In this document: positions 18,701 to 61,322 of the stretch, one piece after another
Position numbering within the stretch: position 1 is the first letter of the stretch
Layout: each line of letters opens with the position of its first letter
From: Leptospirillum ferrooxidans C2-3
Lineage (GTDB): Bacteria > Nitrospirota > Leptospirillia > Leptospirillales > Leptospirillaceae
Assembly (NCBI RefSeq): GCF_000284315.1
Contig: NC_017094.1
Location: 837,486-901,485, forward strand
DNA length: 64,000 nucleotides
Direction of reading: 5' to 3'
The notes under the pieces: model-generated
Seen by the model: the letters and a program-made list of their open reading frames with translations, nothing else
The model's database searches: none
What the model was told of the DNA's origin: nothing
Translations under genes and position numbers: made by a program

Positions 18701-19084
18701 ATGTCTAAAATGTCAGTAGAAGAGATTCTTGGCGGAATTGAGAATCTGACCGTACTCGAGTTGGTTGGTCTTATTAAAGGTATGGAAGATAAGTTTGGCG
18801 TATCAGCAGCAGCTCCCGTTGCTGTAGCAGCAGCTCCTGTAGCATCAGCCGCAGCTGCTGTAGAAGAGAAAACAGAATTCGATCTGATTCTCAAATCAGC
18901 CCCTGCCGACAAGAAAATCAATATCATCAAAGTCGTTCGTGAAATCACAAGTCTTGGTTTGAAGGAAGCTAAAGATCTCGTTGAGGGAGCTCCTAAACCA
19001 GTGAAAAGTGGCGTCACTAAAGAAGAAGCTAATGCAGCTAAAGAAAAGCTTGTTGCTGCAGGCGCTGAAGTAGAAGTAAAGTAA
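18701..19084 (+). CDS. rplL: 50S ribosomal protein L7/L12
   Basis: 127 aa. The N-terminal dimerisation helix pair (1-35), the Ala/Val-rich hinge (about 38-58) and the C-terminal globular domain, with '[13 protein letters not shown]', are all present. This multicopy stalk protein recruits EF-Tu and EF-G, both encoded nearby. A strong hairpin follows the stop. Confidence 0.97.
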
Positions 19085-19116
19085 TACAAGAATATATTCT
19101 CTAGGATCTCTTTTTT

Positions 19117-19149
19117 AGGCAGGCTTACCTGTGTAAGCCTGCCTTTCTT
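19117..19149 (+). terminator. strong hairpin after rplL (terminator/attenuator)
   Basis: A perfect 12-bp stem (19117-19128 with 19133-19144) with a 4-nt loop is followed by TTCTT. The 3' T-tract is short, so it may be a partial terminator or an RNA-processing site that lowers rpoBC expression relative to rplL, as the E. coli attenuator at this place does. Confidence 0.7.
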
Positions 19150-19434
19150 AGTCAACCCTACAAATACTAATGTCTCCTTCGTTCTAAGGGTGAGTTTATA
19201 CATCTGTCATTCCTCTTTCAATGGTACAAACCCTGTTGCGGACAGGGAAATCGGAAAAACTATATTGCTGGGTGAATCTATTTTAAGGATATTTACGCCC
19301 TTTTTCCGATATTCCTTGTATTGGGATGTATTCACGTTTTCAAACATTATGTTTGAGGCAAACCAATAACTGGTTATTCCGTCTTCGGGATAACCGGGCT
19401 TTAATGACTCAATGCTTGAACAGAGGATCTCCGA
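19150..19434 (+). promoter_or_regulatory. structured spacer/leader upstream of rpoB
   Basis: No plus-strand gene is present. Several inverted repeats occur: 19231-19236/19242-19247 (6 bp perfect); 19246-19259/19301-19315 (14 bp with one bulged base); 19340-19345/19351-19356 (6 bp perfect); and 19372-19380/19387-19395 (9 bp with one G-T). The first two share 19246-19247, so they cannot form together. A weak promoter-like pair (TTGCGG 19236, 19-nt spacer, TATATT 19261) also lies here. The structure suggests a regulatory leader for rpoBC. Confidence 0.5.
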
Positions 19435-22400
19435 ATGAATAAGAATACATCGATAGAGCGTCATTTTTTTGGGATTGGGCAACATTATTTAGATGTTCAA
19501 GATCTAATCGAAATCCAAAAAAACTCATATGAAAGATTCCTTCAACTTGAATTGCCCCCAGGAAAAAGAGAAGACTGGGGCTTACAGTCTGCTTTCCTTA
19601 GCGTTTTTCCTATAGAAGACTACAATGGGAACATCAAAATTGATTTCCTTGAGTATTCTATTGGAACGCCCAAATATGACGAACGAGAAGCGATTGAAAG
19701 AGGAATGACACATGCTGCCCCTTTGAAAATCAAAGTGCGAGTAGCATTACTGGAGAAACTGAAAGAAAACGAAAAAATAAAAGTCATTAATTCAAACAAA
19801 AATAATGAATATACATTAAAAAACCTTAAAGAACAGGAAATTTATCTAGGTGATTTGCCCTTGATGACTTCTAAAGGGACTTTTATTGTGAACGGAACAG
19901 AGAGAGTTGTTGTCAGCCAGTTGCATCGATCTCCTGGAGTCTTTTTCTCTCATGACAAAACAAAAACTAGAGTTGCTGGCACTCCTCTTTATACTGCTCG
20001 GATTATTCCCTATCGCGGTTCTTGGGTAGATTTTGAATATGATCCAAAAGATAATCTCCATATAAGAATTGATAGAAAGAAAAAATTTCCCGCAACTGCT
20101 ATGCTAAAAGCTCTTGGGATGACTTCCACAGATATTATTCGTGAATATTATCATGTGGAAAAACTGTATATTGAACCAGGTCAACCGGAGTTGGGTGTTT
20201 TTTACTCTCTTGTTCCAGGAGAAGTATTACCCTTTCAATTAAGAGATCACGACGGAATGATTTTTCGGGAAGAACATCTTCCTTCAGATCCAGTAGAATT
20301 GCTACGAACAATTAGAGATAGAAGTGATATAACTCTTCGTTACTTAGACCCTACTATATCTCTTGAAGTAAATGTTCCAGATATTCGCATTATTTCTGAA
20401 ACAAAAAATCCAGGTATTCTGATACCGCTTTCATCTTGGATTTCTGCTATTGAAAAGACCTCCTTAGCAAGTCCTGAGTTAGCAGCTCTTGTTTCCCAGA
20501 TTTCTGCAGAGCTCAAAACTAGGGCAACCTTATCATCAAATGAAACGTTAACGCCTAAAGCGCTTCTGTCTATTCTGTCTGCTACAGGAAAAGCAAATGA
20601 AGCTCTTCTTCAAGGAATTCTTCCATTTGTCAATAAGTCTAAAGAGTTTATGATCAATCAAACTATGATGGTTTATCGATACTCAGAAGTTAAAGAGAAT
20701 GATCCGATTCCGTTTCGTATGGTTTCGCGTACATATAAAGATGATGGCGATAAGATAAAAAATCAGGATGAAACCGTTGTAAATGAAAAGGAACCCCTTA
20801 CCCAACAACTAGTCGCGAAATTATCAAAAATTAACAATCTTGGAACTATTCACCACCGATCTAAGATTTTTTACCCGGTATCTATTCGTCCTATTAATAA
20901 CTCGGCTAATACGTATGCGATTCTAGAGGCAATTTCAGAAAAAGAAATTGCGGAATATTATTCAGCTTTAGAAGTATTATCTCCCGAAAATTTTTCACAG
21001 ATTTTGCTCCACCCCACCCAGCAGCTTACTGGGTCAGATGGAGAAAAAGGTCAAAAACCCACGCTTGTGAATTTATATGAGCATGGAATTCAACATATCT
21101 CGGCTTACTTGGTTCCTCACAATCAAAGAGCAAGATCTGTTATCCACCAAACCTTATCTACTGACAAGGTCGGGATGATTGATAATGAGCGATCATTTTT
21201 TCTTCGAAGCCTTAGCTCACTTAATCTGACCCCCGAAGAACTCACAATGTCTCTTGTTTCCCGTTATTTATCCTATGAAGAGATTGACGTGCAGTCAAAA
21301 AAAAGGCTGTTCAGTGTTCGGGTAAATTCTAAATCCTCTTTTAAGTTTGTGACTAATGACGGAGAACTCCTTCTCAGTGAAGGTACACTTGTAAGTCCTG
21401 AATTGTATTCAGAGTTATCCAAGGTAAGAGAAGGTACTGTCATTAAATCTAAAAATGACGAATCTCTTGTTTCTATTTCTTTAGAAAAAGACTTCTTAGG
21501 TGAAAAAATTGTCTTTTCAACTAAATCGCAAGTTACCCCAGAATCCCTTTCTGGCCGGGTTCTTCTCTTTCCTTTAGGAGAGACTAAAAAAGGAGGGTTC
21601 CTTCGGGAATCTGGGGAACAGGTTGAAATAGAAGATATTGACCTTGCCAAAAAATCTAAAATGAATATTCTTCCAATCGTGTATTTACCTAATAATAAAT
21701 CCATTGATTTGTTTATGGAAGTACTTGATCTTGGACGGAATCCATTTAGAGTTGAATCAGATCCTGCAGTTATCGAAATTTACAAAAAAATCCGGCCTGG
21801 CGAGGTTCCGCATGTCGAAACAGCAAGAGCCTTTTTCGATCAGTCATTTTTTAATACAAAGCGATATGATTTGTCCTCAGTGGGGAGATTAAAACTTAAC
21901 TCAAAACTTGGACTAAAAGAAAACCTTGCTAATCGCTTATTAACCAAAAATGACATTGTTGAAGTAATTCGTTATATGGTCGGCCTTTTAGAAAATAAAG
22001 GGGAAGTTGACGATATTGACCATTTAGGCAACAGAAGAGTTCGTTCTGTTGGAGAATTACTTGAGAATCAATTCAGAGTTGGGCTGGTTCGGATGGAAAG
22101 AGCTATTAAGGAAAGGCTAAATTTAGGCGACCCTGAGACAGTTCTGACTTCTGACCTTATCAATGCAAAACCGGTTTCTGCCATTATCAAGGAATTTTTC
22201 GGGTCCAGTCAATTATCTCAGTTTATGGACCAAACCAATCCGTTAGCTGAAGTTACTCACAAACGGCGTTTATCTGCATTGGGCCCAGGCGGATTGACCA
22301 GAGAGCGCGCTGGTTTTGAGGTACGCGATGTTCACGGCTCTCATTATGGAAGAATATGTCCGATTGAAACTCCAGAAGGTCCAAATATTGGTTTGATCAC

Positions 22401-24594
22401 TTCATTGGCAACATTTGCTAGAGTTAATGAATATGGATTTATAGAGTCGCCTGTCCGAAAAGTCGAAAACGGTCGGGTGCTTCCCGAAATCGTGTATCTT
22501 TCTGCGATGGATGGAGATAAATACATCATAGCCCAAGCAAATACCCCAGTGGATAAGACTGGGGCTTTCACTGAAGCCTATATTACTGCCCGAACCAAGG
22601 GAGACTCTACTTTAGTTACTTCAGATAGAGTTCAATTTATTGATGTTTCACCTCAACAAATTGTATCTGTCGCTACGGCTCTTATACCTTTTCTTGAGCA
22701 TAATGATGCCAATCGAGCACTCATGGGATCCAATATGCAGCGGCAAGCTGTCCCACTGTTAAGGGCTTCTGCGCCATTAGTGGGAACCGGTATGGAAAAA
22801 ATTATAGCAAGAGATTCAGGTTATGTCGTTTATGCTGAAGAAGATGGTCAAATTGTGTCTTCAGATGGCAGATTTATAACTTTGAAATATAAAAAACGAT
22901 CCAATCCTGTGACAATTCCCATGATCAAGTTTCAGCGCTCTAATCAGAATACATGTTTAAACCAGAAGGTGCTTCTTCCCGCCGGTACAAAAGTCAAAGA
23001 AGGGGACGTGCTAGCAGATGGTCCCTCAACTGAACGCGGTGACCTTGCCATGGGACAGAATGTGCTTGTCGCGTTTATGCCATGGGCTGGTTATAACTTT
23101 GAAGATGCTATTCTGGTTAGTGAACGACTAGTACAAGAAGATCTTTTCACTTCCATTCATATAGAAGAATTTGAGTTAGAGGCACGTGAGACTAAGCAAG
23201 GCAAGGAAGAGGTTACTCGAGACATTCCTAATTTATCAGAAGAAGCTTTACGAAATCTTGATGAAAGCGGAATTATAAGAATCGGAGCTGAAGTTAAGCC
23301 TGGAGATATCTTAGTTGGTAAGGTTACGCCTAAAGCTGAAACACAGTTAACCCCGGAAGAACGTTTGCTTCGTGCTATTTTCGGTGATAAATCTGCAAAT
23401 TGGAAAGACGCTTCACTTACTGTTCCCGCAGGAATCGAAGGTATTGTTGTTGACGTCAAGATTTTGTCGCGTAAGGGAGTCGATCGAGAAGATCTCCCTG
23501 TTGTTACCTCCCAGCAAGATATCAACGCTTTGACGAAGAATTATCAGGAAGAGCTAAGGGAGTTAGATCGGGAGAAAAATGAACGCATTCGAAAGTTCCT
23601 TATAGGGAAAGTCATCAAAGAGGATATATTGGATTCGGAAAGCGGTGATGTCTTACTCAAAAAGAAAAGACGCTTAACACCGGAGTTAGTAGAAAAGCTT
23701 ACAGATTTGGCAATTATAACTCTATCAGATCCCAAGGAACAAGAAGAGTTAACAGCAATCGAAACAGAAACCAAAGAGAAAATTGAGTCAATTCAGTTAA
23801 GACACGACGAAAGAATTGGAAGGCTGAAGCGCGGGGATGAATTACCTCCTGGCGTATTGAAGCTCGTCAAGGTATATGTAGCAATGAAACGTAAATTGTC
23901 GGTTGGCGACAAAATGGCTGGAAGACATGGAAATAAAGGTGTGGTCTCTAGAATATTACCATTAGAAGATATGCCTTTTCTCCCAGATGGAACCCCTGTA
24001 GATATCGTTTTAAATCCATTGGGTGTTCCTTCTCGTATGAATGTTGGGCAAATACTTGAAACCCATCTTGGATGGGCTGCTAGAGCATTAAATATACATT
24101 TCGCTACCCCCGTTTTTGATGGAGCCAGTGAAACTGACATAAAAGAACAACTTAGAAAAGGCGGTCTCCCCGAAACGGGACAATCTGTTTTGTTGGATGG
24201 GAAAACAGGTGTTCCATTTGAAAGGCCGGTTACTGTAGGTGTTATGTATATGCTTAAACTCCACCACCTTGTAGATGATAAAATCCATGCCCGCTCTATT
24301 GGACCTTACTCCTTAGTAACACAGCAACCTTTAGGCGGAAAAGCTCAATTTGGAGGTCAAAGGCTTGGAGAAATGGAAGTGTGGGCATTGCAGGCATACG
24401 GGGCTGCATCGACTCTTCAGGAGTTTTTAACAGTAAAATCCGATGACGTTTCAGGTAGAAGCCGAATGTATGAAGCTATTGTTCGAGGAGAAAATTATTT
24501 AGAACCTGGTCTACCTGAATCTTTTAACGTTCTGATTAAAGAAATGCAGAGTTTGGCACTGGATATTGAGCTCCTTAAAACAAGGGAGAAATAA
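19435..24594 (+). CDS. rpoB: RNA polymerase beta subunit with very large lobe insertion
   Basis: 1,719 aa, far longer than E. coli beta (1,342). The N-terminal protrusion is normal to about residue 233. Then about 550 residues precede 'IRPGEVP' (787-793), where E. coli has about 150. The last part of this span aligns by eye with the end of the E. coli SI1 module, so it is an enlarged lineage-specific insertion. The rifampicin cluster (from 923) matches E. coli, with Asp932, His942 and Ser947 in the wild-type state. A second, coiled insertion (about 1310-1480) resembles E. coli beta-i9. The catalytic '[12 protein letters not shown]' and the C-terminal clamp are intact. ATG 19435 has AGAGGA upstream; rpoC follows 2 nt later. 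Confidence 0.97.
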
Positions 24595-59880: not shown

Positions 59881-61322
59881 CCTTCAAACAGGCCATGCTG
59901 GATTCTTTCTTCTTTTGAAAAAGGGATTGGGTAGCAGCCAGTAAAGCAGGCTGTGCAGAAGCCTTTTCTGGAGTTGTTTTGATCTTTGGCTCTTTCTATT
60001 TCTTCCTGCATGGCATCCACAGACAGATATGCCAATGAGTCTGCCTTTACATATCGCCTGATTTCTTCAAGACTATGAGTTGCTCCTATTAGTTCAGTTC
60101 TTGTTGGAGTGTCAATACCATAGAAGCATGGTGAAATGATGGGTGCTGATGCAATTCGCATATGAACTTCAGATGCACCTGCAGCACGCAGCATGGAAAC
60201 AATTTTCCGGCTTGTTGTTCCCCTGACGATAGAGTCATCAACGACAACAATGCGCTTGTTCTTTAAAATTGATGGGACAGCATTAAGCTTTATTTTGACC
60301 CCAAAGTGACGGATGGATTGTTGAGGCTCAATGAAGGTTCGCCCAACATAATGGTTTCTGATTAAACCCATATCAACAGGAATTCCTGATGCTTCTGAGT
60401 ATCCAAGTGCTGCAGCAAGACCGGAGTCGGGAACGGGAATAACTAAGTCCGCTTCAACAGCTGAATCTTTTGCCAGTCTTCCTCCCAGTCTTTTTCTGGA
60501 GAGATAGACCGGATAACCAAAAACTTGGCTATCCGGTCTGGCGAAGTAAACAATTTCAAATATGCAGGGTGCATCCTTCCGAACAAAGAGTTTATGGCTT
60601 TCCATGCCTTTCTCATTGATAACAACCATTTCACCTGGATCTACATCCCTGATGAATTCAGCACCAATAAGATCAAACGCACATGTTTCAGATGCAAGAA
60701 CATAAGCATCGCCAATTTTTCCGATCGAAAGGGGACGAAGTCCCAGTGGATCCCTTACTCCAAGCATTGAGTTTTCAAGAAGGACAATGAAGGAATAGGA
60801 TCCTTTGACAGATGAGAGAGCTGCACCCATTTGTTCAACCATGGTCATACCTGTTGACCTGGCAATAAGGTGGACAAGAACCTCCGAATCAACCTCCGTT
60901 GTAAAGAGTGCACCCTCGTTTTCCATTTCGCGTTTGAGCTCAATTGCATTGGTCAAATTTCCATTATGAACAAGAGCAATTGGTCCTTTTGAGTAAAACG
61001 CTGTCAGTGGCTGGAGATCTTTTTCAGGATCTCCACCAGCTGTTGCATAACGGTTATGTCCAATTGCGATATTCCCTTTTAAGTCATTCAACAGGTCTTC
61101 TGTGTAAAACTCCGAAACTAGTTTTGGTGATTTTCTAAGTAAAAGTTTTCCGTTTTCCAAGCTGGCAATACCCGTTCCTTCCTGTCCCCTGTGCTGCAGT
61201 GCATACAGGCCGAGGTAAGTCAGGTTGGCTGCTTCTGGATGACCATAAATTCCGAATACGGCACATTCCTCATGAAAATGGTCATCGGGAAGATCTGTTG
61301 GGGATGATGTATTGGAGCTCAA
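59877..61322 (-). CDS. purF: amidophosphoribosyltransferase
   Basis: 481 aa. First step of purine synthesis: PRPP + Gln to phosphoribosylamine. A short propeptide (19 residues) precedes Cys20 of 'HEECAVFGIYGH', the N-terminal nucleophile glutaminase. The PRPP loop 'VVVDDSIVRGTTSRK' is in the C-terminal half, and 'CTACFTGCYP' near the end suggests the iron-sulfur-type (Bacillus-like) PurF. The TTG start overlaps the purL stop by 4 nt. Confidence 0.95.
   Translation of the reverse strand: MSSNTSSPTDLPDDHFHEECAVFGIYGHPEAANLTYLGLYALQHRGQEGTGIASLENGKLLLRKSPKLVSEFYTEDLLNDLKGNIAIGHNRYATAGGDPEKDLQPLTAFYSKGPIALVHNGNLTNAIELKREMENEGALFTTEVDSEVLVHLIARSTGMTMVEQMGAALSSVKGSYSFIVLLENSMLGVRDPLGLRPLSIGKIGDAYVLASETCAFDLIGAEFIRDVDPGEMVVINEKGMESHKLFVRKDAPCIFEIVYFARPDSQVFGYPVYLSRKRLGGRLAKDSAVEADLVIPVPDSGLAAALGYSEASGIPVDMGLIRNHYVGRTFIEPQQSIRHFGVKIKLNAVPSILKNKRIVVVDDSIVRGTTSRKIVSMLRAAGASEVHMRIASAPIISPCFYGIDTPTRTELIGATHSLEEIRRYVKADSLAYLSVDAMQEEIERAKDQNNSRKGFCTACFTGCYPIPFSKEERIQHGLFEG

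Follow-up and report, generated by a model that had tools for sequence, protein, structure and literature searches.

The rplL–rpoB junction and its structured spacer

The region studied is the rplJ-rplL-rpoB-rpoC cluster contained in a 64-kb window (the whole stretch of DNA that was analysed) of the genome of an iron-oxidizing Leptospirillum, assembled as a single contig of 2,559,538 bases. Protein family models identify the products of the flanking genes as L10, L7/L12, and RpoB, and the junction between rplL and rpoB lies inside an rplKAJL-rpoBC cluster, the location expected of an attenuator between these genes. The two genes and the structural elements that separate them are as follows:

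18701 to 19084, forward strand: rplL, the upstream gene, encoding ribosomal protein L7/L12 (open reading frame; TIGR00855 at 156.9 bits, cut-off 84.4)
19117 to 19144, forward strand: 12-bp perfect hairpin with a U-rich tail (UUUCUUAG), a putative attenuator or intrinsic terminator (terminator scan, folding, recurrence)
19231 to 19247, forward strand: small hairpin, predicted to be transient and superseded by the long stem (−8.4 kcal/mol; folding probabilities)
19243 to 19318, forward strand: long stem-loop with an outer stem of 17 pairs and one bulge, a candidate double-strand processing site (−24.9 kcal/mol, P about 0.9–0.95)
19319 to 19368, forward strand: stem-loop with an inner hairpin at 19339–19357 (folding)
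19370 to 19397, forward strand: 12-pair hairpin with a UUCG-type loop (−16.8 kcal/mol)
19435 to 24594, forward strand: rpoB, the downstream gene, encoding the RNA polymerase beta subunit of 1719 aa (open reading frame; TIGR02013 at 1757 bits, cut-off 801)

The spacer is 350 nt long here, 375 nt in the g2 MAG, 139–148 nt in genus g5, and approximately 75–140 nt in other Nitrospirota. It contains two small open frames, of 59 aa on the forward and 92 aa on the reverse strand, neither of which has gene-like marks, and a scan for a separate rpoB promoter returned a single weak match (19239–19266), which such a scan cannot discriminate. The idea that the spacer is a mobile or repeated element was rejected, as no second copy is present in the genome; a search of viral contigs found no relative, and plasmids gave no match. 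Over its first 320 residues RpoB shares 75% identity with the nearest named relative, a Leptospirillum MAG. The protein is several hundred residues longer than the TIGR02013 model (1238 positions), the best-scoring stretch of which starts only at residue 732, and its N-terminal half apparently carries a large insertion that is common to the other Leptospirillum loci (open frames of about 1730 aa). The GC content of the window is 41%, compared to 47–55% in 18 stretches sampled from this genome, with the AT-richness spanning all 64 kb and extending beyond the ribosomal genes.

A preliminary description of this DNA had presented the spacer as a structured, possibly switching leader, and the elements it listed are indeed there: the 12-bp perfect hairpin directly after rplL (19117–19144, −20.9 kcal/mol), the four further inverted repeats, and the sharing of bases between the small hairpin and the long stem, which overlap at 19243–19247. 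Folding of 19085–19450 yielded z = −4.96 relative to dinucleotide shuffles, none of 100 of which was as stable, and the corresponding value for 19150–19450, which leaves out the terminator-like hairpin, was −3.48, again with 0 of 100 shuffles as stable. By raw energy, 8 of 182 non-overlapping 350-nt windows are at least as stable as the spacer (39% GC), the most stable among these eight being GC-richer than it. When hairpins with an uninterrupted stem of at least 12 pairs and a loop of 3–8 nt are counted, two of the three in the 64-kb window fall inside the spacer. The third, on the minus strand at 60506–60539, has 15 pairs (AGACCGGATAGCCAAG-TTTT-TTGGTTATCCGGTCT), and no other short-loop hairpin in the window is as long.

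The hairpin at 19117–19144 has the form of an intrinsic terminator with a U-tract, its tail (TTTCTTAG) being C-interrupted and of moderate, not strong, quality. Hairpins stand 16–37 nt past the rplL stop codon in all four of the other Leptospirillum spacers (L002 and L006–L008), followed by a clearly U-rich tail (TTTTCTCATTTT) in each of the three g5 spacers and by a tail of poor quality in that of g2, and across genera the position of the element is constant while its sequence turns over. We think it likely that the hairpin is an attenuator of the kind known from E. coli, and from the hairpin, its tail, and its positional recurrence, all of which are observed, we infer partial termination at 19117–19144. 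The structured leader and the attenuator-like element of the preliminary description are thus borne out, the latter by its terminator-type hairpin and positional recurrence, and the switch pair that it proposed is not, as discussed below. In L007 and L008, both of g5, the motif CTCATTT in the U-rich tail of the terminator can pair with AAATGAG farther along the spacer, in what may be an antiterminator-type interaction; L006 lacks it.

Complementarity between the leader and the rpoB coding region

The strongest feature of the spacer, which the preliminary description did not contain, is a complementarity between the leader and rpoB itself, discovered through a genome search with the spacer as query that returned a reverse-strand match inside the gene. 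The following features are involved:

19192 to 19221, forward strand: leader side of a predicted closed-state helix with 19416–19449, which covers the Shine-Dalgarno sequence and the AUG (pair probabilities)
19201 to 19222, forward strand: leader arm, complementary at 21 of 22 positions to the rpoB coding arm, with the Shine-Dalgarno/start region as its alternative partner
19422 to 19427, forward strand: rpoB Shine-Dalgarno sequence AGAGGA (mean unpaired probability 0.01–0.06 before and 0.52 after 19706 is transcribed)
19693 to 19714, forward strand: rpoB coding arm, +259 to +280, about codons 87–94 (IERGMTH), partner of 19201–19222

The perfect core of the match is 18 nt long (19205–19222 against 19693–19710), within the 22 positions of 19201–19222 and 19693–19714. 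Its ungapped complementarity score of 19 compares with a maximum of 12 among 60 dinucleotide-shuffled leaders, and the 17-base core, with at most one mismatch allowed, occurs at exactly two places in the 2.56-Mb genome, namely the two arms, which lie 487 bp apart in opposed orientation. In a background sample of 424 kb, made up of the 64-kb window and 18 stretches (360 kb) of the same genome, it is the sole exact inverted repeat of at least 15 nt within 1 kb and of at least 16 nt within 3 kb. Shorter inverted repeats within 1 kb number 605, 174, 52, 12, and 5 at lengths of 10 to 14 nt, an approximately fourfold drop per base, from which we estimate by extrapolation that about 0.02 repeats of 18 nt would be expected in the 424 kb. 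Such rarity makes a chance match implausible; the complementarity exceeds chance, as a long-range switch would require, and reflects a function, a copying event, or the two together. Sequences in G004 and G007 that resembled parts of the arm were rejected as short pyrimidine-rich chance matches that do not derive from rpoB.

Partition-function models describe two states of the start site. For modelled 3′ ends from 19460 to 19700, the Shine-Dalgarno sequence is unpaired with a probability of 0.01–0.06 and the start codon with 0.09–0.13, with Shine-Dalgarno pairing to the leader amounting to 0.96–1.0 at the ends 19460 and 19520 and to 0.87–0.91 at 19690, and with pair probabilities of 0.4–1.0 per base along the closed helix. 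As soon as the bases up to 19706 are present, the long-range helix reaches P = 1.0, and the unpaired probabilities rise to 0.52 for the Shine-Dalgarno sequence and 0.53 for the AUG, the predicted opening of the start site being only about half. The pairings of the leader with the coding arm and with the start site are mutually exclusive in these models, which is the behavior of a switch, and this choice of partners is better supported than the pair of stems put forward earlier. Permuting the coding arm leaves the start site closed in seven of eight trials, and permuting the leader arm opens it. The transition is kept from three different 5′ ends, and its contrast is slightly weaker at 30 °C. 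Of the shuffled leaders, 3.5% reach closure as complete as the native one, and of 40 leaders into which a different rpoB segment had been placed in inverted orientation, none does; these frequencies are moderate, post-hoc probabilities obtained from one sequence. The models take no account of kinetics, pseudoknots, proteins, or ribosomes, the last of which would melt the coding arm when translating it.

These observations lead us to suggest, tentatively and with somewhat less than even confidence, that the spacer uncouples rpoBC from rplJL through two layers of control. In the first layer, the hairpin at 19117–19144 would terminate transcription partially and thereby yield less rpoBC mRNA than rplJL mRNA. 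In the second, the leader strand 19192–19222 of the read-through mRNA would have two mutually exclusive partners: it would occupy the rpoB Shine-Dalgarno sequence and start codon until the polymerase has advanced about 270 nt into rpoB, and, once 19693–19714 has been transcribed, would shift to that segment in a long-range helix of 18–22 bp (about −34 kcal/mol), leaving the start site half open. Translation of rpoB would consequently be delayed or limited; ribosomes passing codons 87–94 would free the strand and allow the site to close again, in what would amount to a self-limiting loop, and under poor translation the perfect duplex could become a target of RNase III. The parts of this proposal differ in strength. 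On balance, the folding models lead us to expect that the long-range helix between leader and gene forms in untranslated mRNA, but that it regulates the translation or stability of rpoB is a possibility to which we give clearly less than even weight. The most specific version, which we regard as speculative and rather improbable, is that the rpoB mRNA both times and limits its own translation by means of an internal decoy, with a strand copied from the gene closing the start site until the matching segment is transcribed and with passing ribosomes releasing that strand.

It is an old question how bacteria balance RNA polymerase against ribosomal proteins made from one shared transcript, and the mechanisms are not fully known even in E. 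coli (PMC4670729). The decoy, if real, would be an autoregulatory governor of RNA polymerase translation that works without protein or ligand, and a leader that pairs with either the start site or its own gene would offer a simple means, independent of any ligand, of tying translation to the progress of transcription and to ribosome traffic. The nearest known counterpart is the attenuator/RNase III region between rplL and rpoB of E. coli, which occupies the same junction and gives the spacer a similar role: a structured spacer, with a terminator-like hairpin following rplL, decouples rplJL from rpoBC (PMC4670729; Barry 1980, as cited in PMC5371410). The likeness is one of gene position and of the predicted role of the spacer, homology of sequence or hairpins not being implied. 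We know of no complementarity of this kind between leader and coding region described for the E. coli junction.

In anti-Shine-Dalgarno/anti-anti-Shine-Dalgarno switches, a leader strand masks the ribosome site and is capable of shifting to an alternative partner. The arrangement described here differs from them in that the alternative partner belongs to the coding sequence itself, about 260 nt past the start codon, and in that the predicted trigger is the progress of transcription or translation rather than a ligand. Long-range RNA pairing is also used for translational control in a ribosomal-protein operon by the L20 operator of E. coli infC-rpmI-rplT (PMC10931766), but there the L20 protein binds a pseudoknot, whereas here an upstream strand would pair with either the start site or an internal segment of the gene downstream, with no known protein taking part.

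Origin of the leader arm and possible processing of its duplex

The coding arm encodes conserved RpoB residues (IERGMTH) in a stretch that is similar in all five loci, for which reason the leader arm is best regarded as the derived copy, its most likely origin being the inverted duplication of coding sequence. The main rival of the regulatory reading starts from the same point: a template switch during replication would have placed about 22 nt of rpoB reverse complement into a stretch of the spacer under no other constraint, as a neutral inverted duplication, the resulting pairing would have no role, and only the attenuator would be functional. We consider this a serious contender, to which we give somewhat less than an even chance. 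It accords with the conserved residues on the coding side, which make the leader side the copy, with the confinement of the arm to this genome, and with the variation of both length and sequence of the spacer between genera (139–148, 350, and 375 nt). Template switching is known to produce reverse-complement copies that are able to form RNA stems (PMC8794818), and the pattern found, a near-perfect reverse-complement copy nearby that relatives do not have, is the one expected of it. Template-switch inverted duplications, or quasi-palindrome mutations, likewise place a reverse-complement copy nearby in one event (PMC8794818), but the arms here are about 490 bp apart, and one of them is coding. 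The near-perfect identity would require a recent event. For typical local template-switch events, a shorter distance between the arms than about 490 bp would be expected. Two further points weigh against a copy without function: among 41 modelled segments, comprising the native one and 40 surrogates, full closure of the start site ahead of the transition is achieved by the native segment alone, and unusual structure extends to the remainder of the spacer. Against the regulatory reading, reverse-complementing a purine-rich coding stretch will almost by necessity give a sequence of anti-Shine-Dalgarno type. Should the arm prove to be a neutral inverted copy, it would be a clean natural example of the one-step birth of regulatory RNA helices.

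Comparison with relatives bears on both readings. The leader/rpoB complementarity is absent from the spacers of L002, L006, L007, and L008, and hence not conserved, with no equivalent complementarity in the relatives exceeding 10–11 nt; the 13-nt match between leader and rpoB in L002 has direct rather than inverted orientation. When the spacer was aligned with five other Leptospirillum loci, which represent four distinct spacers, no usable homology emerged beyond the gene ends. With the arm absent from relatives and the spacer not alignable, these loci offer no covariation signal either for or against pairing, and no sign of selection. The Shine-Dalgarno sites of the relatives show no comparable transition from closed to open, that of L008 alone being closed, and this in part of the range. 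Neither rplL nor rpoB was found in the incomplete assemblies of two other genomes of the genus and of other family members; rplL is found some 3 kb or 12 kb into its contig in many Nitrospirota genomes, and these assemblies may break at repeated genes near rplL.

A further reading, which we hold to be rather unlikely, assigns the spacer to RNase III, which would cut the long stem at 19243–19318, the 18–22 bp duplex, or both, separating the rplJL mRNA from that of rpoBC and setting the stability of the latter, as in the corresponding spacer of E. coli. In its favor stand a perfect 18-bp duplex that is longer with its flanks and a stem of 17 pairs, but stems of such size are not specific for RNase III. 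A cut at 19693–19710 would moreover destroy the rpoB mRNA and would have to be a step of quality control or repression. For E. coli, attenuation and processing of the rplJL-rpoBC RNA are the subject of Barry 1980, cited in PMC5371410. This genome holds two genes of the RNase III family, which also favors processing; they are separate genes (G000:C1:1979473-1980132 and G000:C1:2467329-2468069), each with TIGR02191 above the cut-off. Most bacteria have one RNase III gene.

Other readings of the spacer hairpins and a gene fusion upstream

The attenuator reading of the hairpin after rplL has its own alternative, namely that the hairpin is merely a stabiliser of the mRNA 3′ end or a processing stop that does not terminate transcription. 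Many other Nitrospirota have a hairpin after rplL that lacks a U-rich tail, and the strong hairpins which they carry at the same place would fit such a role, but the tail is U-rich both in this genome (TTTCTTAG) and in g5 (TTTTCTCATTTT), and we judge the alternative unlikely.

The switch pair of the preliminary description, made up of 19231–19247 and 19246–19315, behaves differently from what had been supposed. The partition function points to sequential refolding, in which the small hairpin comes first, with a probability of about 0.6–0.96 in transcripts ending before 19312, and is then replaced by the long stem, its probability falling to 0.01–0.03 past 19318, where the long stem is complete, and standing at 0.36 in a model of 19150–19760 that includes the site in the open reading frame. 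As modelled, the two do not form a bistable or equilibrium pair. Sensing of a ligand by the leader, which had also been suggested, found no support: an Rfam scan of the 64-kb window returned tRNAs only and no known cis-regulatory RNA family, and the failure of the spacer to align across genera argues against a conserved riboswitch. A ligand- or protein-sensing switch through these stems, for example by autogenous binding of RNA polymerase, is therefore very improbable, for although the two stems do overlap and rpoBC is autogenously controlled in E. coli (PMC10931766), the long stem, favored by about 16 kcal/mol, wins nearly always, and the leader shows neither a known RNA family nor conservation across genera.

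Upstream of the junction, the Nitrospira-type genomes (L014–L040, families f10 and f17) differ in the organization of the ribosomal-protein genes, as rplJ and rplL form one uninterrupted frame that encodes an L10-L7/L12 fusion of about 310–350 aa. Open frames of fusion length occur in nearly all f10 and f17 genomes and in none of Leptospirillum, and our literature search found no report of an L10-L7/L12 fusion. In L014 the fusion extends over approximately locus positions 890–1881, with NF000955 matching residues 26–193 and TIGR00855 residues 205–329. The fusion contains an internal Shine-Dalgarno-like stretch followed by an ATG (KKGEGDM), from which free L12 may also be made.
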